Positions 1 through 9,694 of a stretch of 9,694 nucleotides of DNA are shown in pieces. The notes beneath the pieces are model-generated. The model did no database searches and had not been told where the DNA came from. It was given only the letters and a program-made list of their open reading frames with translations. The stretch comes from Bacteroidota bacterium. Its GTDB lineage: Bacteria > Bacteroidota > Bacteroidia > Chitinophagales > UBA10324. The position numbers were made by a program, and so were the translations under genes. The first letter of the stretch is position 1; each line of letters starts with the position of its first letter. Location: positions 1 through 9,694 of the forward strand of contig DMRR01000163.1 in NCBI GenBank assembly GCA_003455275.1, in the 5' to 3' direction.

Positions 1-2868
1 GAACGATTGCAAATAACTTGTAGGAATATTATGTTTCCCATATTTTGCATAGTGTTTTTCGATTGTTATTTTGCCGCCGTGCGAGAACTTCACATCAGGT
101 GTTCGAACCATATAATTACCAGAAAAAGTTTTGAAATCAAATTCAGAGTAATATTTTTTAAGATAATCATTTGAAAGTTTTTTTCTTTTGTCAATGTCTT
201 TTAAAAAGTATTTGTTGCGGGGCATTGCCTCAAGATAAAGCGTGGTGCCGTGCTTATCAGCCAGTGCGCATAGGTCAGCAAAATATTTTTTTGCAGAATA
301 TTTAGATTCCTTTTTTTGCTGTTCTGGCTGGTTCTTTTCAAACAGCTCAATGATTGCGCTGTTGCTTACTGTCTTAAATGGAGTTACTTCATTTGGTAAA
401 CTTACAATAAGTGTAATTCCATTTGCCATAAACACACTTGCCATGCGCATGTATTCAGCAAAAAATTTTTCTTGTTCTGATAAAACTTTTCCCCCTCTAT
501 CAAATCTTATATCATTACTCTCAGGATTAAAAGTGGTGTTGGTGCCATCAGCGATTTTGATTTGGTTCGGTTCGAAAGCAATGTAAGTATTTTGAACTAT
601 ACCCTGTGTTTCAATAATATTTTTAACAATAGCACCATCTGATTTTGATTGTAATGATTTTATAATTAAACCTTTCATTACCATATACCATCTCTGTTTT
701 TCGCCATCAACAATGTATGGATTTTTTATTGAAAGAAAGCATGGAATAATTCTATTAATTTGATATTGTTTTTCTACAGAATAAATTCCAAATTTTTCTT
801 TCTGTTCATTGTATGTTTTCTGATATGATTCCCAATCTTGTTTTTTCTCATACTGCCTTAATTCATCCTGTAATTTTGCAAATTCTGGTATTGGCTTTGT
901 AAAATCAAGTGCATAAAATCTTGCTGTATCTTTATTGTTAGAAAAATAAATTCCATAATCCCATACTAACCAATCTTTTCTGAATTTATTTGCTGGAATA
1001 AACTCAGTAAACTCTTTTGTTGTTCCATGATAAACCAACAACGGCTCACCGTTCTCATCCACTACTTTAGAGGCATTGGCAGGGTCGTTTTCCCAATCCC
1101 CAAACCATGCCTTAAACTCTAGGGTGCGGACTAAGTGCCATTGTTCCTGCGTAAGATTGCTCGGCTTGCCATTGGGTGCGAGATGCTTGGACATATCGCC
1201 TCCTAAATGTAACATCTCGCCACCTGCGTTCTTCTTTATTGGGTTATTACCCCATATAAGCAAGGATAGGTGTTTCCGTGTCTTGCGACCTTTATCATCA
1301 AATAAAGCCCCCTCATTGCCACTCATACGGCTTATAAAGCTAACTTGACGACCAGCCCATTTCCACATCTCATCTGTCCATTCAGCCTTTGGGGTGCGTT
1401 TCATACGCATTATCCAACGAGCCGACTGCCTTCCGCTACCGATACCTTGTCTTTTGGCTTCGGATGCTGATAGACCTGCCTTTTTACCTTCTTCGCTATC
1501 ATAAAACCTCTCAAGTTCAGAGGCACTCATATTTACGAGTTGTTTCCATTTCCGGTACAACTCATCGTGCTTGTCATCAACAGAACCGCCATCCTCAAAC
1601 CTTATATCTTTAATTTCTGCATCAAAGGTTGTGTTACTGCCATCGGCAAGTTTTATTTGATTAGGATAAAAAGCGACTATCTCGCCCCCTTCATCAATAA
1701 AACCATCATAACCTCTTTTTTTTGCTTCATCAGTCCATTGCAAAGAAGCATTTTTAATTGAGGTATATTCTTTCAATTCATTTGCTCGATTCGGAATCCA
1801 CGAATAAGGCATAAAACTATCTTTCCAATTATCAGATGTTCTTACCAAAGGATTTTTTATTGACAAAAAACATTGATACGAATATTGCCCATAACCTTTA
1901 ATGGATTTGTTAGCGAAATAAAATCCTACTCCCGCATACCCACCATCGCTTTTTCCAAAATATGACAAATCAAATACATTGAATTTGCTATCCGAATTAT
2001 GATAAACCACCATTGGCTCACCATTCTCATCAACTACTTTGGAAGCATTTTCGGGGTCATTCTCCCAATCGCCAAACCATGCTTTGAAGTTAGGGGTGCG
2101 CACGAGCGCTTGCTGCGCGGGGGTAAGGTTGCTTTTATAGTTGGTGGCTCGTGGTTGGTGGCTCGCAGTAGTTCCGCCTTGTTTCATTTTATAATATTGT
2201 TCTTCAATAATAAGTTTTTCCGGGTGTAGTGAAACCATAACCTTAAAATCTTTCGAACCGATTGTGCTTGGGTGCATGAATGAAACAAATTCATAACCTT
2301 GCTTGCGCGCTTCGATTGCCTGAGATTCAATTATGAAATCAATATCATCTTCATTCATAATTGCATTTTCAACCTGCTCGTTTATGTCTTTAATTTCTCC
2401 TTTTGGCGCAATAACTTTCAGCAATCGTGGAGTTCCTTTTCCTCTGCCTCCACCAATGATATTGTCAAGAGCAAATCCTCTTGCTTCCAATGAGTTTTCA
2501 GCAAGGTAAACAATGTCGCCTTTAAACTTGTCGAAGTTTACTGAAGAAGTGCCGTGGTAAAGAGTGATTGTGTCTTTGTCTTGTTTAAGTATGTTGATAG
2601 ATTTACTGGAATATGGTGGAACATCAGTGTTGAACCCGTCATTATTAATCTGGGAAATTTCTTTCTGATGCTCCCGGTTAACTTGCTGCACACTGCTACT
2701 CCCTTCCATGTAAAGTTTTCTTATGGCTTCAAATATGGTTGAATCAAGCAATTCCTCTTTCTCATTGTATTCACCTTTATCATCAAGCAGTTTAATACTG
2801 TCCTTTATTTCTTCCGGCAGTTCGGAGAAATTAAAATCAAGTTCGCGAAGCCGTGCAATTAGTTTCAT
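1..2868 (-). CDS. Polyvalent protein with three ADP-ribosyltransferase-like modules (3' end outside window)
   Basis: Reading the minus strand from the ATG at 2868-2866 gives 956 codons without a stop to the window edge, so the gene is partial at its C-terminus. In order I see a helical N-terminus (residues 1-95), an ART-like module starting at LYHGTSS (about 100-225), a second from LTPAQQALVRTPNF to IKLADGSNTTFD (246-427), a conserved phage/element-associated segment (430-545), a third ART from LTQEQWHLVRT (571-792), and a GNAT-like segment (796-932). The FKAWFGDWENDP...VVDENGEP...VYH signature is typical of the ART domains found in polyvalent proteins of phages and conjugative elements (ART-PolyVal type). 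Such proteins are thought to travel with invading DNA and modify host targets by ADP-ribosylation. Start choice rests on the TGATG overlap with the upstream gene. The targets are unknown; activity of each copy is inference. Confidence 0.87.
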   Translation of the reverse strand, partial: MKLIARLRELDFNFSELPEEIKDSIKLLDDKGEYNEKEELLDSTIFEAIRKLYMEGSSSVQQVNREHQKEISQINNDGFNTDVPPYSSKSINILKQDKDTITLYHGTSSVNFDKFKGDIVYLAENSLEARGFALDNIIGGGRGKGTPRLLKVIAPKGEIKDINEQVENAIMNEDDIDFIIESQAIEARKQGYEFVSFMHPSTIGSKDFKVMVSLHPEKLIIEEQYYKMKQGGTTASHQPRATNYKSNLTPAQQALVRTPNFKAWFGDWENDPENASKVVDENGEPMVVYHNSDSKFNVFDLSYFGKSDGGYAGVGFYFANKSIKGYGQYSYQCFLSIKNPLVRTSDNWKDSFMPYSWIPNRANELKEYTSIKNASLQWTDEAKKRGYDGFIDEGGEIVAFYPNQIKLADGSNTTFDAEIKDIRFEDGGSVDDKHDELYRKWKQLVNMSASELERFYDSEEGKKAGLSASEAKRQGIGSGRQSARWIMRMKRTPKAEWTDEMWKWAGRQVSFISRMSGNEGALFDDKGRKTRKHLSLLIWGNNPIKKNAGGEMLHLGGDMSKHLAPNGKPSNLTQEQWHLVRTLEFKAWFGDWENDPANASKVVDENGEPLLVYHGTTKEFTEFIPANKFRKDWLVWDYGIYFSNNKDTARFYALDFTKPIPEFAKLQDELRQYEKKQDWESYQKTYNEQKEKFGIYSVEKQYQINRIIPCFLSIKNPYIVDGEKQRWYMVMKGLIIKSLQSKSDGAIVKNIIETQGIVQNTYIAFEPNQIKIADGTNTTFNPESNDIRFDRGGKVLSEQEKFFAEYMRMASVFMANGITLIVSLPNEVTPFKTVSNSAIIELFEKNQPEQQKKESKYSAKKYFADLCALADKHGTTLYLEAMPRNKYFLKDIDKRKKLSNDYLKKYYSEFDFKTFSGNYMVRTPDVKFSHGGKITIEKHYAKYGKHNIPTSYLQSF
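70..483 (-). other. GNAT-like C-terminal segment, motif A not seen
   Basis: Residues about 796-932. The pattern LCALADKHGTTLYLEAMP, then DYLKKYYSEFDF and NYMVRTPDVKF, resembles the last strands and helix of GNAT acetyltransferases, where a similar ...fYkkfGF...M.R.P ending is common, including in polyvalent proteins. The first half does not show the acetyl-CoA binding Q/R-x-x-G-x-G/A loop, so this may be a degenerate or partial GNAT. It ends at KFSHGGK (928-933), after which a new unrecognised segment begins and leaves the window. Confidence 0.45.
493..1158 (-). other. ART-like module 3 with intact HGT motif
   Basis: Residues about 571-792. LTQEQWHLVRTLEFKAWFGD leads into ASKVVDENGEPLLVYHGTTK (H614), then DYGIYFSNNKDTARFYA, FLSIKNPYI and FEPNQIKIADGTNTTFN. 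It is homologous to module 2 from end to end but carries a longer charged insert (about 665-700, rich in K, E and Q) and keeps the canonical HGT motif, so it is the best candidate for an active ADP-ribosyltransferase. It ends in DIRFDRGGK. The interior (about 541-1020) is very AT-rich; for example 12 of 60 bases at 721-780 are G or C, against 31 of 60 at 1081-1140. Confidence 0.8.
1027..1131 (-). repeat. Direct repeat copy B (ART module 3 lead-in)
   Basis: This 105-base stretch encodes the FKAWFGDWENDP...VVDENGEP...VYH lead-in of module 3. It aligns without gaps to 1999-2103 at an offset of 972 bases (324 codons), with 85 of 105 positions identical by my hand count. Most differences are at third codon positions, so the copies have been kept under protein-level selection since duplication or acquisition. 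Confidence 0.85.
1234..1581 (-). other. Conserved domain between ART modules (resembles DUF5824)
   Basis: Residues about 430-545. The segment has the conserved blocks MSASELERFYDSEEGKKAGL, GIGSGRQSARWIMRMKRTP, MWKWAGRQVSFISRMSGN and KGRKTRKHLSLLIWGNNP. I recognise this as a domain recurrent in large phage and mobile-element proteins and believe it corresponds to DUF5824; no biochemical function is established to my knowledge. Its arginine/lysine and tryptophan richness would suit nucleic-acid or protein binding, which is inference. It is more GC-rich than the variable ART interiors on either side. Confidence 0.6.
1588..2133 (-). other. ART-like module 2 with HNS instead of HGT
   Basis: Residues about 246-427. 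The lead-in LTPAQQALVRTPNFKAWFGD is followed by ASKVVDENGEPMVVYHNSDS (H290), then GVGFYFANKSIKGYG for the second motif, FLSIKNPLV, and the closing FYPNQIKLADGSNTTFD. The usual HGT is HNS here, which may be a tolerated variant or may weaken NAD binding. The module ends at the F-x-x-G-G motif (residues 424-428). The stretch between the two conserved ends (about 1640-1990) is clearly more AT-rich than the ends. Confidence 0.78.
1999..2103 (-). repeat. Direct repeat copy A (ART module 2 lead-in)
   Basis: This is the partner of 1027-1131, encoding the same lead-in in module 2. The shared stretch includes a perfect 10-base block around CAAACCATGC (plus strand), which encodes part of FKAWFG. In-frame homologous recombination between the copies would remove exactly 324 codons: the rest of module 2, the intervening domain and the start of module 3. 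Confidence 0.85.
2194..2571 (-). other. ART-like module 1 (divergent)
   Basis: Residues about 100-225 of the polyvalent protein. It opens with TITLYHGTSS, where H105 sits in the HGT motif that binds NAD in ADP-ribosyltransferases. This is followed by IVYLAENSLEARGFA, which corresponds to the second conserved strand and helix, and ends with a strand like VMVSLHPEKLII. A glycine-rich loop, IIGGGRGKG (138-146), is inserted. It lacks the FKAWFGDWE lead-in of the other two copies, so it belongs to a different ART lineage. I cannot place the catalytic glutamate with certainty, so activity is open. Confidence 0.65.
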
Positions 2869-4234: not shown

Positions 4235-7200
4235 TTAAACTCCCAATTCCAGCAACACATTCACCTTCGCAAATTTCTTTGCTACAGAGGCACGGCGGCG
4301 GTTCAGTTCTGCTTCATCTTCGAGTTGCTTAATGCGGGCAGCAGCATCATCTTCTGCAGTTTTTTCAGCATCAAGATTCACTGCTTCCTCCTTATTTTTT
4401 TCGTCAATCATCTTTTCTGCCTCGCGGTCCTGTTGCTGAAGGTCATCCAAAATTTTTTCCTGTATTGGCAATGGTGATTCCTCGTCCGTGTATTCCTCCA
4501 TCTTCACATGCGGTTTCACATAATGGTCGAACTGTGCGCGGCTGAGTGATGCAGTAGCATTGTATTGTTCTTTCAGGTAATCCAAAAGATTCTGCAACTT
4601 GTTTTCCGGCACCTCGCCACGCATGTTCGTTGCAACTTTGTTAAACTGATTTTTAGTCAGCCCCACAAGCACCTGGTCTTCAGCGTAGTATTTTGCAAAG
4701 TCCTTTTTGGAAGGCATCATTACTTCGTAAATGTATTTGTCTGCATCACGAGCCACAAAACCGCGATGTCCTGTGCTTCCCGTATTATGCTTTTTCACTA
4801 TTGTAATTCCAAGTGAAGTTTCAATCGGATTTGTGTCCGGTTCTGAATCCTGGAGAATGTGCAGTGCATAAGTAATCGGCACTGTAACTCTTACCGGCTT
4901 TTCATCTTCGCCATGAATACGCTTGGTTCCTTCCGGTTTAAAGTCATAAGTCATCAGCACACCGTTTCTTACTCCGCCCTTGATGGTAGTAAATCGAATG
5001 AGTTTTCCTTTCTGAATATCTGACTTGGCAAGAGCTTTCAGAATGTTTCCGGTAACGATGTATTGATAAATACGGTCGGCACTGGCTTTCTTAATTTCAC
5101 TGTTCCATATTTTGAGCATGTATTCATAACTCTCATTGCTGGAAATTCGTGTGCGCGTCATGTCGCGGCACTGAGAAATTATATCCAATTTTGAAAGCGG
5201 AACTACGCGGTAGCGCTGCGAACCAGCAAGCGCGAAGCGAAGTTTGATGTTGCTCTTTGCATAAGGATTTTTGGTTGATTTGTTAATCGCAAACCCAACG
5301 AAAATTCCCTTGATAAAAGTAGTTTCCGGGTTGTTAATGTCGCCGCCGGCTACAAACAATGGATAAGCAACTACCTTACCCGGACGGAAGAAATCAATGA
5401 AGGTATTGATGTAACCTGCCTGTGAGTTTTCGTAGTTTTCGCTTTCGTGCAGTCGGGTTGCTTTTTCTGCTTCCAGCTCACGGGCTTTTTCTTCCACACG
5501 CATATCAATATCCTTTTGAGTGATTCCGTTTTTCTCCAGTTCAAGTTTCCAGATTGGTGAGTTACGGAATTTCTCTAAATCATTTTGCGTATCGGTTTCA
5601 ATATACTTTGCCATCCGCTCTATCTCCGCCTTAGCGTATGCTTTCACATCGCTCTTCAGTGCATTGGTATATTCTTCAACAGTAACTTTATTTCCATCAG
5701 CATCAGTGAGCGTTTGCTCCACCATCGCGCGAACTTCTTCGCTCTTGTAGGGCTTGCTCAGGTTATTGACAATACATTTTTCGAGAATCGCATGGCGACT
5801 GAAAATACTTTTATCGCCACTACCCAATGACACAATCATTTTTTCTTCAGTTTCGGCCTCAAGTTTTTCAGCCACACCAACTTCGAGATCATATTCTCCG
5901 CTTTGTTTAAGAAGAAATACAGTGTCTTTGTATTGCTCAATGACTTCATCATAAAACTGCTCTTGTTGCTTGGTTGGTAATACTGCAATTCGTCCGCTCG
6001 TGCGGTGCGCGCAATCCGCTGGCACAGGCACATGCTCGATGCCTCCGTATTCCTGAGCGAGTTTGTTCAGGTTTCCGAATGGTGCGCCAAGCTGATTGTT
6101 ATAGATACTCATGTGTTCGAACAGCCAGTTCAGCACAATTCGGTCTCCGTATTTGTTCAGAAAATCATCAGTATCAAGAATTGCAGTTGATTGCTTTTGA
6201 TTTGAAGTGGTGTTTGCATCAAGCGAACTGAGCTTATGCTGAAGCATAATCATATAGCGCTTCTCGGCCGGAACAGCAGAAATCACATAATCGTAAATCG
6301 GTTTAAATATTTGACCTGTTCGGAAAATACGCCCGCGCTTTTGAACTTCCTCGTTAATATCCAACTCCGCCTGTAAAATAATCATGCAACGCTGCTTCAC
6401 TTTATCTTTCGGAACTTTCTTGGTTGGAATCGCATGTGCGCTGGCTCCGGTGCTTCCGGCGCGGTTAATCATGATACAGTCAATTTCATTATCATTGAAC
6501 ATGCGGAAAGTTTCTTTCGCATTTCGGAACACACGGCTGGTGTAAATTGCAGTTCCGTCGCCGTTAATTTTCAAACGATTTTTTCTGCCTGTTACTTCTT
6601 CTACCGTGAATCCTGCATTTTGAATGTGGTAGTAAAGCACATCAATCGGTGAAAGTGAAATTCCTGTAACAGTTTGCTTTATTTTCTTTTCAAGATAAGC
6701 ATAAGCATTCATAAAGTCCTCTCCCATTTCTTCCGGAATTAAATACTCAGTGTAAGCGGTCCCGTCAGGATTGGTTACAGTGTATTTGGTGCAGTTCTTT
6801 AACCGGTGCAAAAACACATGACTGAAATCATCAGCAATCACTTCTCCGTCGCGCAATTGCATTCCTTCATCATTGGTAAGGCGGTTTAAGAAACTTTCCA
6901 TGGTAGAACTGAACGCAATTACCGGCTTGCGACCTTCTTTCAAACGATTGACTGCGTGCTGCGCCACCACAGATGCTTTAATTGAAAAAAGCATCTGAGA
7001 AATCAACTGAAATACCCCGTTAAATACCGGCATGTTATTGATTCCGCCTTCTTCGGTTCCCTTTGTCATGCGCGATTTCAGGCGCTCATTCTTTTTTTCA
7101 ATTGCGGGCTTCACATATTGTTTCTGAAACTCCATAATATCACGAAGCAGTTCAGTTGCGCTGTCGGCTACGGCACGGTGAACATCTTTTAAGTCAAACT

Positions 7201-9694
7201 CAGGGTGCGGGCTATTGCCTTCGCGCTGGCTTGAATCCAGATACATGTAATTTACTTCCACTCCCTCGTAACTGCGTTCTCGGCGTATGTGCTCGCCCTC
7301 GCGTGTAAGCATACTTGCAAGAATTTCCTGCAATGCAACCCCGCCACGACGAACAGCATCTACTAATTGCGTATCATCTAATTCAGCGTCCTGTATTGCA
7401 GTTTTAGCTGCATAGATTGGCATATTGTCCGGGCGCTTTGCAAAGGTGGCTGAAAGAAATACTGCCCCGCTACATGCCTTTAACAATTCTTTCATGAACT
7501 TACCCGTGTTGCTATCTCCTGCTGCATTGTGGCTTTCGTCCATAATAATAATTGCTTCCGGTGCAAGTGACATCAGAAATTTACGCTTTGCTTCACTGCG
7601 CTTGCTTCCTGATATTTGAGAATAAGTGAGAAACACTCCATCATAACCTTTTGGCATTCCGGCGTGAGCCATTGCTTCGTTTCGCTCTGCTGAATTTCCG
7701 GCAAGCGGGCGATAAAGAATATTTCCTTCTTCATCCTGCACAGCAGTGCGGGTATCATTGGCATTGATGATGAACGGAACAAATCTTTTTTTTCCAAAAC
7801 ATTGTTCTTTGTAATTTTTATTCGGAATGTAAACAGGCATTTCAATTCCGCCTGCTTCTGCTTCAAGCCACAGTTGTTCTACTGCTTCATCAGGATCCAC
7901 ACCATCTTCAATTGCCTGTTCGCGTGCTTCGGTAATTTCTTTTCGGGTTACTGTTCTTTTCTTCAATCTGGTTTCGGTAGTAAGAAACTCCTGAGGAATA
8001 CCTGCATCGGCGCCGATGGCTACCAGGTCGCGAGCCATATCAGAAAACAGATTTGCTTTTGCAGTAAAGAAGATTGGAATTTTTTTGTGAAGCCGTGCAT
8101 ACTCCATTACACCTGCAGCCACGCGACCTTTCCCGATTCCCGTCATGTCGCCTATGATGGTGCTTTCGTGGCGGTTCTCTACATTAAAGATAGCCATTGC
8201 CAGCGCATCTATTTGTTCTGCGCCAAATGCATCACACAGGCACTTGATACCTTGCTGCTTTTCTTCCATAGTGCAGTTGATATCGTGGAAGCCAAGTTTT
8301 TCGCTCACATATTCATCTACACCATTTACCCGGCGGTCAACTGTCTCAATTGCTTTGAGCATTTCGTAGCGGAGCAATTCAGGTGCGGTGGTGTCAAGCG
8401 TAGCGCACGCATCGCTGGCGGGTATGTAGGTTGTGTCCACTGGCGAAGCATTTTTGGTTTCGGTTGGCGCGGTGATGTGTAGGTTAGCTGCTTCAAGTTC
8501 CGTTGTAGCAGTGGTTGGGGGAATTTGAGGATTCATTTTTTTAAATTCTTTATTATTATCTATCTCCTGGTATTGTTTTAATAATTTATAATATTTTTCA
8601 ACGAGTTCATTTCCTCTTTTATCAAAAACTTTTGAATCTTTGGTAATTTTTATATTATTTTTTGAATTGTCTTCAATATACAAATCTTCATTAAAATGTC
8701 CATTAATTCCATATTCTTCTTCTAAGATTTCAAAGGTGGCATTTATTTCTTTTTCTATTTCAAATAAAGATTCTTCTTTAACGGTTCTTTTTTGAGGAGG
8801 TAACTCGTCGGATGCACGAGGTAATTTAATTTTGGTTCTTTGTTCTATTGTTGTAATAATTTGTTTTACAACATCAGATAAAGTATTATCAGAAAGGCGA
8901 ACTTCAATTTGGTCGTCAAGTTTTGTTTGCTTGATATAATCAGATAAATAATAAGTGCAGTAAAGAGAAACATTGTCTCCATGCATAGAGTTTCCTGATT
9001 CACATTGAAGCACTAATCCTTTATCAAACCAAACAGCAAACAATTCATCGTCATAAACTTTTCTGTTAGGAACGCCATAAATATTTTGAAAAAGTTTATT
9101 TCCAAATTTATCAACTAATTCTTTCAGTGCTTTTTTACCGCCTTTGTTCACGGTAATTACATCGGCATTATATTTTTGAAATTCAGCGATAAGTAAATTT
9201 CCTGCTATTGCGCCTGTATTTTGTGGATTGTCAAGGAAATTAATATTTAAAGCGTCAGAACTTGTAATAAAATCCGGCGCATTATCTTTATCGGTTACAA
9301 AGTTTTTTACCTTGGTGGCGGCGTGGCTTATGCCAGAAGCAAGTTTGTTTAGAAATGATTTTTCAGGCAGATGTGCTTCGTTGTATTCGGAAAGGTCAGA
9401 ATCAAGTTGCTCTGAAATATAGAAGTCAATAATTTTATCAATTTCCTTTTGTATTTCGTTTTGTTTTTTTCTTGCTTGTCCCTCTGGAAATTTAAAATAA
9501 ACAGATAATTGGATTTGACTTCGTTTATTTTTTTGTAAAATTTGTGGCGGAACAAAAACGCTGTGAATAACAACATCAGGCACTCGTGTGTTTGACTGAA
9601 TGAATATTTTTAATTTATCTGTCAGTTCACGAATAATATCATAAGTTCCTGGTTTGTAAAATTTTTTCTCAACTGCTTCTGAAATGTTGTAATC
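4235..9694 (-). CDS. Giant strawberry-notch-type SF2 helicase (5' end outside window)
   Basis: The frame is open from the right edge (9694) to TAA at 4237-4235, giving at least 1819 residues; the true start is outside. Counting from the first visible codon: an unrecognised AT-rich N-terminal block (1-386); a T/A/P-rich linker (about 387-420); then a Sno-type helicase core with YIPASDACATLDT, EQIDALAMAI, Walker A GDMTGIGKGR (515-524), Walker B MDESHN (D719), SATFA (748-752), motif V NRAGSTGASAHA and motif VI QKRGRIFRTGQ (1118-1128). After the core come long helical stretches, two beta-rich modules (from about 1437 and 1563) and a charged coiled-coil tail (about 1735-1810). Such helicases translocate on or remodel DNA using ATP and are frequent in phages and conjugative elements, often joined to methylases; no methylase motif is seen here. 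It heads a tight operon with the two genes after it. Confidence 0.9.
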   Translation of the reverse strand, partial: DYNISEAVEKKFYKPGTYDIIRELTDKLKIFIQSNTRVPDVVIHSVFVPPQILQKNKRSQIQLSVYFKFPEGQARKKQNEIQKEIDKIIDFYISEQLDSDLSEYNEAHLPEKSFLNKLASGISHAATKVKNFVTDKDNAPDFITSSDALNINFLDNPQNTGAIAGNLLIAEFQKYNADVITVNKGGKKALKELVDKFGNKLFQNIYGVPNRKVYDDELFAVWFDKGLVLQCESGNSMHGDNVSLYCTYYLSDYIKQTKLDDQIEVRLSDNTLSDVVKQIITTIEQRTKIKLPRASDELPPQKRTVKEESLFEIEKEINATFEILEEEYGINGHFNEDLYIEDNSKNNIKITKDSKVFDKRGNELVEKYYKLLKQYQEIDNNKEFKKMNPQIPPTTATTELEAANLHITAPTETKNASPVDTTYIPASDACATLDTTAPELLRYEMLKAIETVDRRVNGVDEYVSEKLGFHDINCTMEEKQQGIKCLCDAFGAEQIDALAMAIFNVENRHESTIIGDMTGIGKGRVAAGVMEYARLHKKIPIFFTAKANLFSDMARDLVAIGADAGIPQEFLTTETRLKKRTVTRKEITEAREQAIEDGVDPDEAVEQLWLEAEAGGIEMPVYIPNKNYKEQCFGKKRFVPFIINANDTRTAVQDEEGNILYRPLAGNSAERNEAMAHAGMPKGYDGVFLTYSQISGSKRSEAKRKFLMSLAPEAIIIMDESHNAAGDSNTGKFMKELLKACSGAVFLSATFAKRPDNMPIYAAKTAIQDAELDDTQLVDAVRRGGVALQEILASMLTREGEHIRRERSYEGVEVNYMYLDSSQREGNSPHPEFDLKDVHRAVADSATELLRDIMEFQKQYVKPAIEKKNERLKSRMTKGTEEGGINNMPVFNGVFQLISQMLFSIKASVVAQHAVNRLKEGRKPVIAFSSTMESFLNRLTNDEGMQLRDGEVIADDFSHVFLHRLKNCTKYTVTNPDGTAYTEYLIPEEMGEDFMNAYAYLEKKIKQTVTGISLSPIDVLYYHIQNAGFTVEEVTGRKNRLKINGDGTAIYTSRVFRNAKETFRMFNDNEIDCIMINRAGSTGASAHAIPTKKVPKDKVKQRCMIILQAELDINEEVQKRGRIFRTGQIFKPIYDYVISAVPAEKRYMIMLQHKLSSLDANTTSNQKQSTAILDTDDFLNKYGDRIVLNWLFEHMSIYNNQLGAPFGNLNKLAQEYGGIEHVPVPADCAHRTSGRIAVLPTKQQEQFYDEVIEQYKDTVFLLKQSGEYDLEVGVAEKLEAETEEKMIVSLGSGDKSIFSRHAILEKCIVNNLSKPYKSEEVRAMVEQTLTDADGNKVTVEEYTNALKSDVKAYAKAEIERMAKYIETDTQNDLEKFRNSPIWKLELEKNGITQKDIDMRVEEKARELEAEKATRLHESENYENSQAGYINTFIDFFRPGKVVAYPLFVAGGDINNPETTFIKGIFVGFAINKSTKNPYAKSNIKLRFALAGSQRYRVVPLSKLDIISQCRDMTRTRISSNESYEYMLKIWNSEIKKASADRIYQYIVTGNILKALAKSDIQKGKLIRFTTIKGGVRNGVLMTYDFKPEGTKRIHGEDEKPVRVTVPITYALHILQDSEPDTNPIETSLGITIVKKHNTGSTGHRGFVARDADKYIYEVMMPSKKDFAKYYAEDQVLVGLTKNQFNKVATNMRGEVPENKLQNLLDYLKEQYNATASLSRAQFDHYVKPHVKMEEYTDEESPLPIQEKILDDLQQQDREAEKMIDEKNKEEAVNLDAEKTAEDDAAARIKQLEDEAELNRRRASVAKKFAKVNVLLELGV
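4238..4490 (-). other. Charged coiled-coil tail of the helicase
   Basis: The last roughly 85 residues contain long runs rich in E, D, K, Q and A, such as EKILDDLQQQDREAEKMIDE and ARIKQLEDEAELNRRR, with hydrophobic residues at heptad-like spacing. This suggests a coiled coil for self-assembly or for docking to a partner, possibly one of the operon products (inference). Confidence 0.6.
4860..5386 (-). other. Two similar beta-rich modules after the helicase core
   Basis: From R1437, PGKVVAYPLF followed by FIKGIFVGFAIN and IKLRFAL; from G1563, GKLIRFTTIKGG followed by GVLMTYDF and VRVTVPITYAL. Both read as GK-hydrophobic strand, glycine turn, G-(I/V)-hydrophobic strand, then a basic strand. This is the outline of small beta-barrels of SH3 or KOW type that bind DNA or partner proteins. 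The repeat relation is my reading and is weak at sequence level. Position after a Sno core is consistent with an accessory DNA-binding part. Confidence 0.45.
6190..8440 (-). other. Sno-type helicase core
   Basis: This covers both RecA-like lobes. Lobe 1 runs from YIPASDACATLDT (about 8390-8440) through Walker A (8152-8123), Walker B DESH (7540-7529) and SATFA (7453-7439). Lobe 2 has PVIAFSSTMESF, motif V (6472-6431) and motif VI with two arginine-finger candidates in RGRIFR (about 6311-6343). The TGIGKGR form of Walker A and RIFRTGQ of motif VI are diagnostic of the strawberry-notch group rather than Snf2. All catalytic motifs are intact, so ATPase activity is expected. Confidence 0.88.
8537..9694 (-). 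other. AT-rich N-terminal block fused to the helicase
   Basis: About 386 visible residues, beginning in frame at the window edge with DYNISEAVEKKFYKPGTYDI. It contains predicted strands (VVIHSVFVPPQIL, IQLSVYFKFP), a charged helix (about residues 70-95) and DELFAVWFDKGLVLQCESGN. I do not recognise a family. G+C in 8581-8700 is 23 of 120 bases by my count, against 66 of 120 in 8401-8520, a sharp step at the first residue of the helicase part (M387). This points to a domain joined from another source, or to a region under different selection. Confidence 0.6.

Follow-up and report, generated by a model that had tools for sequence, protein, structure and literature searches.

Multi-module ADP-ribosyltransferase chain with a recurrent [FY]xxGG spacer on a Bacteroidota contig with relatives in uncultured viruses

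Polyvalent proteins with ADP-ribosyltransferase (ART) domains have been described by Iyer et al. 2017 (PMC5512222). That paper reports one or more ART copies per protein, up to twelve, postulates that polyvalent ARTs are delivered with the DNA and ADP-ribosylate host protein targets, proposes that polyvalent proteins are processed by zincins, and places the ART active site at a His of strand 1, a Tyr of strand 2 and an acidic residue of strand 5. The stretch analysed here, 9,694 bases in length and hereafter the window, is one complete contig (DMRR01000163.1) whose left edge is the contig end, from a Bacteroidota assembly of 277 contigs with an estimated completeness of 80%. At its left edge it encodes a 956-codon chain with three ART modules, one of them assigned by predicted structure, which we regard as a variant of the polyvalent proteins. 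Multi-module chains are already known, and the new part is a repeated inter-domain spacer of the form [FY]xxGG rather than the three enzymes. An earlier note on this DNA was right in part, including its reading of a polyvalent-type protein, and was aimed at the less unusual feature; the spacer was not remarked there.

The open frame claimed in that note was confirmed, and its ATG and the stop codon of the PAPS-reductase-like gene before it have a single base in common. The parts of the chain are as follows.

1..2868, minus strand: multi-module ART chain, 956-codon open frame starting at ATG 2868, no internal stop, C-terminal end off the contig edge
2584..2868, minus strand: N-terminal segment, residues 1-95, LSELPEEIKDSI-type start, no Pfam match
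2173..2577, minus strand: module 1, residues 98-232, predicted structure with an ART fold; H105, Y121, and D207 as a candidate for the third residue
1585..2133, minus strand: module 2, residues 246-428, lead-in and ART-PolyVal domain; H290, Y317, candidate E396
1585..1599, minus strand: spacer motif FEDGG, residues 424-428, after module 2
1225..1560, minus strand: DUF3140-type module, residues 437-548
490..1176, minus strand: module 3, residues 565-793, lead-in and ART-PolyVal domain; H614, Y641, candidate E753; T761 on the strand of E396 of module 2
490..504, minus strand: spacer motif FDRGG, residues 789-793, after module 3
73..483, minus strand: C-terminal module, residues 796-932, conserved, placed behind other domains in related chains, not recognisable as GNAT
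73..87, minus strand: spacer motif FSHGG, residues 928-932, after the C-terminal module

Of 7990 candidates scored in a first search, 1789 qualified as relatives at E<=0.001. In the best 120 (P0001-P0120) the motif [FY]xxGG was counted 803 times per 146,480 amino acids against 82 in shuffles, a count biased upward by the selection of the relatives on similarity to a query containing the ART tail, which favoured spacer-bearing chains. An F or Y stood three positions before isolated GG pairs in a fraction of 0.52 in the same relatives. For a second sample, a search with the ART lead-in (FKAWFGDWE) recovered 489 relatives, of which the best, from 79 viral loci, were used. The lead-in open reading frames (ORFs) of 12 of these loci contained 85 motifs per 17,390 amino acids (shuffled 9.5) while those of the other 67 contained 81 per 203,547 (shuffled 73.6), which is chance level; in this sample the motif clusters in a subset of the contigs and does not exceed chance in the remainder. 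Since the division into 12 and 67 loci was drawn on motif density itself, the result for a HerA-like ATPase given below serves as an independent check.

The placement of the motif relative to domains was assessed in 19 chains with the best over-cut-off stretch per Pfam family, which gave 49 stretches. Only one of 126 [FYW]xxGG occurrences fell inside a Pfam stretch when edges of 8 and 3 residues were disregarded, against 26.5 expected by circular shift, and a motif was located within 40 residues past the stretch end in 25 of the 49 (shifted mean 9.1, highest 19). The non-ART stretches, where this was the case in 10 of 33 (shifted mean 5.8, highest 14), were not significant alone. Glycine codons of the motif were mixed with a slight preference for GGC, and the motif is maintained at the amino-acid level. 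It also recurred in large ORFs without the lead-in on the same contigs, as in L120:2436-9236, where it occurred 20 times in 2267 amino acids. Seven ORFs in the same viruses started at a seam and six of these ended 15-20 residues past a spacer, so the chain is divisible at its joints. A literature search by word matching in open-licence papers found no description of the spacer.

Two individual ORFs are described in addition. In L120:2436-9236 the first eight of the motifs were 21-84 residues apart, and a transglycosylase gene is located a few genes away. The ORF L097:7523-12091 joined a eukaryotic-type topoisomerase IB, a NUDIX domain and a DUF3140 stretch (below cut-off) in one chain with spacers between.

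The earlier claim of three ART modules was upheld, for modules 2 and 3 by the ART-PolyVal profile PF18760 (curated cut-off 31.2 bits) and for module 1 by predicted structure. The whole chain scored 127.6 bits in two stretches, the best at residues 280-415 within module 2, and module 3 alone scored 72.2 bits. A profile search per module, as proposed in the earlier note, was therefore positive for modules 2 and 3 and gave no Pfam match to module 1 (~98-232), PF18760 included, even at E 10; a relative of module 1 (P0123) reached 20.7 bits with PF18760 over the homologous stretch 653-754, below the cut-off. The AlphaFold2 model of module 1, with a predicted local distance difference test score (pLDDT) of 79.3 and a predicted template modelling score of 0.74, resembled ADP-ribosylating toxins, RES toxins and PARPs as well as phage ART-PolyVal proteins in the structure comparison, and on this model module 1 is predicted to be an ART fold. 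By sequence, no ART chain was among the PDB matches of module 1, and none of the three weak PDB matches of module 2 was an ART. The FKAWFGDWE lead-in is present in modules 2 and 3 and not in module 1, whose search gave three relatives among 250 candidates, all within large proteins of another kind, in agreement with the claim of at least two ART lineages. Relatives of module 1 sought in viral_contigs were not found, nor was the whole ART chain when its own patterns were used in viral_contigs and genome_contigs.

The His and Tyr of the ART active site were found in all three modules (H105/Y121, H290/Y317 and H614/Y641). The third, acidic residue did not form one conserved column in the relatives, and D207, E396 and E753 are candidates by inspection only. 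Loss of function in module 3 through T761 was considered and rejected, as this position is variable in the family (E in 38 and T or S in 35 of 112 matches) and the acidic E753 precedes it.

The conserved domain placed earlier between the second and third ART corresponded to a DUF3140 (PF11338) match at residues 441-534 (29.4 bits, cut-off 25). The GNAT-like segment was not recovered: the C-terminal module had no match to a GNAT family in Pfam at E<=10, and comparison with a small GNAT alignment (two GNAT segments and one GNAT-bearing chain) gave a profile-comparison probability of 10 over part of the module. The GNAT acetyl-CoA loop has the pattern R/Q-x-x-G-x-G/A, which was not seen in this module by inspection. 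The recognisable activity in the chain is ART only, beside the DUF3140 module and one further module.

Three ARTs in one chain, previously singled out, are ordinary in these relatives. Among 124 sequences (123 relatives and the window chain) at least two lead-ins were counted in 80 and at least three in 40, three or four ART-PolyVal stretches were present in 4 of 14 relatives scanned, and the copy number in the cited paper goes far higher. The DUF3140 module was found in 63 and the C-terminal module in 12 of the best 120 of the 1789 relatives, and related chains combine ART with NUDIX, zeta toxin, methylase or PAPS domains. Among the matches listed, the nearest relatives by E-value were P0084 for the N-terminal segment (36% identity), P0039 and P0012 for module 2 (84%), P0043 for the DUF3140 module (87%), P0112 for module 3 (58%) and P0064 for the C-terminal module (40%), while module 1 was nearest to P0121 (57%). 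Because the closest listed relatives of its parts sit in different chains, the chain appears to be a mosaic whose modules have been exchanged between chains.

Three genes were assigned in the window, all on the minus strand and in the operon-like transcription order of helicase, PAPS-like gene and ART chain. The two genes upstream of the chain are listed below.

4235..9694, minus strand: Strawberry-notch helicase-type gene (PF13872, PF13871), running past the right edge at its N-terminal end, grouping with the viral contig L097
2868..4211, minus strand: PAPS-reductase-like gene, 447 amino acids (PF01507), directly upstream of the ART chain, with a relative in the viral contig L100

No tRNA was found in a search of the stretch. 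The first approximately 400 residues of the helicase-type gene (8500-9694) were without a Pfam match, and G+C of 0.28-0.33 was below that of the rest of the gene. The remainder of the same virus was sought in the bin, where the lead-in pattern was confined to the window contig and searches for LPD38, zincin, Terminase_6N and the ATPase were all empty, three of the four being without a positive control.

Eighteen spacer-bearing loci were obtained, 12 from the lead-in search and 6 further records from a DUF3140 scan (28 loci), a record being counted as spacer-bearing when the matched ORF or an adjoining one contained motifs. The helicase of the window paired with L097 with a support of 97/99 in a tree of seven with long branches elsewhere; helicase patterns of its own gave no match in viral_contigs, and the relatives were reached through the loci of the lead-in and the DUF3140 profile. 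In L100 a relative of the PAPS-like protein (55% identity) is fused behind a DUF3140 module, and the gene that follows this PAPS domain opens with a GELPKDLKEAVELI start, similar by inspection to the N-terminus of the chain. A helicase gene adjoins or is near an ART or DUF3140 chain in L021/L093 (one record) and in L092. The DUF3140 profile found no relative in genome_contigs. Because of its helicase, PAPS, DUF3140 and spacer relatives we infer that the window belongs to this viral group.

A HerA-like ATPase was detected in 15 of 16 spacer-bearing records (G099-G114, loci L013-L100), the Pfam HerA match being below cut-off and the only miss being a 19-kb fragment. As four of the 16 records had supplied rows of the HerA-like profile, the count for the others is 11 of 12; L022 and L095 were outside this search. 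As controls, 13 spacer-free lead-in records were picked from the 67, and none of them yielded the ATPase, which also had no match among 50,697 phage or 72,556 plasmid records. Terminase_6N was detected in none of the 16 spacer-bearing records and in 3 of the 13 controls, which is weak evidence for taillessness because 10 of the 13 control phage records were missed too. The family phrog_9 was found in none of 13 records, and a capsid candidate (L121:13247-14455) had no PDB match by sequence. The spacer-bearing viruses are possibly tailless. Proteins shared by the records G099 and G106 include ones of 261, 231, 215 and 380 amino acids. Short ORFs with an N-terminal hydrophobic stretch numbered 7 of 30 in L121 and 5 of 30 in L123.

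Shared C-terminal peptides were observed in some of these viruses. A PDYL[RK]MFLGK-like peptide closed 13 viral ORFs, from 5 loci, as well as the listed relative P0042, and all 14 occurrences found were 0-1 residues from the C-terminus. Proteins that have a P-loop motif but lack the ART lead-in also carried GTPDYLRMFLGK-like ends, and this shared peptide may be a loading or targeting tag. Two or three adjoining ORFs per virus shared a GTPDYLRMFLGK-like end after GG in L013:7233-11695, L015:8115-10954, L017:6195-8948, L020:9364-10558 and L033:9013-12271. A second peptide, F[KE]PI[TER].PL(N), was located at the extreme C-terminus in five of five cases (P0013, P0086, P0113, P0116 and L020:10563-13709). 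The tail of the window chain, IPTSYLQSF, was tried as a C-terminal tag, with a stop within a few codons, and rejected with a best local alignment of 42 against 39-47 for 12 shuffled tails.

The reading we favour, and hold tentatively at somewhat below even chances, is that the multi-ART chain is a modular effector polyprotein of an uncultured bacterial virus, likely delivered with the viral DNA, with spacers that are likely processing or docking sites. From knowledge of the family, the chain would enter together with the DNA, and host molecules would then be ADP-ribosylated by its three ART modules in the early phase of infection. The [FY]xxGG spacers would be sites of cutting or holding during packaging or delivery, and recognition by a protease rather than another partner is predicted. 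Several results weigh against this reading, beginning with the two sampling effects noted above, the choice of the 120 relatives and the division of the loci on motif density. In L031, for example, a zincin gene neighbours a spacer-bearing chain. In 8 of 18 loci HExxH genes were located no more than about two genes away from the polyvalent gene, but a profile built from five of these HExxH genes recovered 5 of 16 records, exactly its own five, and weakly 1 of 13 controls, so a zincin as the general processing enzyme was weakened as a candidate; the searches yielded no peptidase shared across the spacer-bearing group. The motif was present once, at chance level, in the helicase gene of the window and not at all in the DUF3140 ORF of L092. 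It is also not always a boundary, because the PAPS-like gene of the window carries it once (SYANGG) and the relative in L100 has it at a like place inside the PAPS part. The model of module 3 with the C-terminal module was poor (pLDDT 54) and says nothing on the flexibility of the spacer. Lead-in codon sharing was 0.70 within the same gene (5 pairs) and 0.57 between different loci (360 pairs); as different genes of one locus shared 0.72 too (13 pairs) and the window pair 0.40, recombination seams were neither shown nor excluded.

It is rather unlikely, while still a serious competitor, that the spacer is a mere flexible hinge, the modules being shuffled as cassettes and the chain acting uncut as an ordinary polyvalent protein. 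The distribution of best listed relatives over different chains, the lack of a common protease in the searches and the codon sharing, which is compatible with recombination, are in its favour. For a hinge an aromatic residue ahead of the glycines would be dispensable, yet about half of the isolated GG pairs have F or Y three positions before them, and a protease or docking partner accounts for this fixed residue better. The mixed glycine codons, the recurrence in large ORFs without the ART lead-in, and the ART chains of the 67 other phage loci, which share the lead-in without an excess of the motif, likewise argue against it. Alternatively, both the spacer and the C-terminal peptide could serve as tags for docking or loading, by which chains reach their place in the virion uncut. 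The strictly terminal position of the PDYL[RK]MFLGK-like peptide, also on P-loop proteins without the lead-in, is consistent with this, but the peptide was present in only 5 of the 18 spacer-bearing loci and the last residues of the window matched listed relatives or ORFs no better than shuffled sequence, and we regard tags without cutting as unlikely. An origin of the chain not from a virus but from a conjugative element, a plasmid or an integrated element would be in keeping with Strawberry-notch relatives in 424 plasmid records and with helicase relatives on the Bacteroidota plasmid pPP10 (38% identity) and on a chromosome from the taxonomic order of the bin (43%). The pairing of the window helicase with L097 and the DUF3140, PAPS and spacer relatives in IMG/VR contigs, nearly all of which carried the HerA-like ATPase where searched, make such an origin improbable.

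A short motif at the joints of many chains in one virus group offers a direct handle on the storage, delivery and splitting of giant polyvalent chains, since cutting there would leave new N-termini at GG. Modules of obscure function in uncultured viruses become parseable, as they can be excised between two spacers. As a bolder and doubtful extension of the effector polyprotein, uncultured and possibly tailless bacterial viruses might use an effector grammar of interchangeable modules (ART, DUF3140, PAPS, kinase, topoisomerase IB and NUDIX), [FY]xxGG cut sites and a C-terminal loading peptide, by which one gene would yield several separate virion-loaded effectors.

Compared with known systems, the chain shares with the polyvalent proteins of Iyer et al. 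2017 (PMC5512222) the organization of large multi-domain chains of mobile elements with ART included. The regular [FY]xxGG spacer is the difference here, the words glycine and linker not occurring in the main text of that paper, and the spacer-bearing relatives sit in a viral group whose ATPase was unmatched in the phage records. Modules 2 and 3 fall within ART-PolyVal, whereas module 1 is a separate lineage by its lack of lead-in and Pfam match and was 9-18% identical to RES/ParT-type and PARP-type ARTs (6d0h, 6gw6, 6fkg, tankyrases) among the matches listed. The neighbouring helicase is related to plasmid Strawberry-notch proteins and is like that of phage BS-TP4, where it is part of a 5391-residue chain beside the portal gene in which the spacer is at chance level only. 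In the window, by contrast with BS-TP4, three genes lying next to one another encode the helicase, PAPS-like and ART parts separately.

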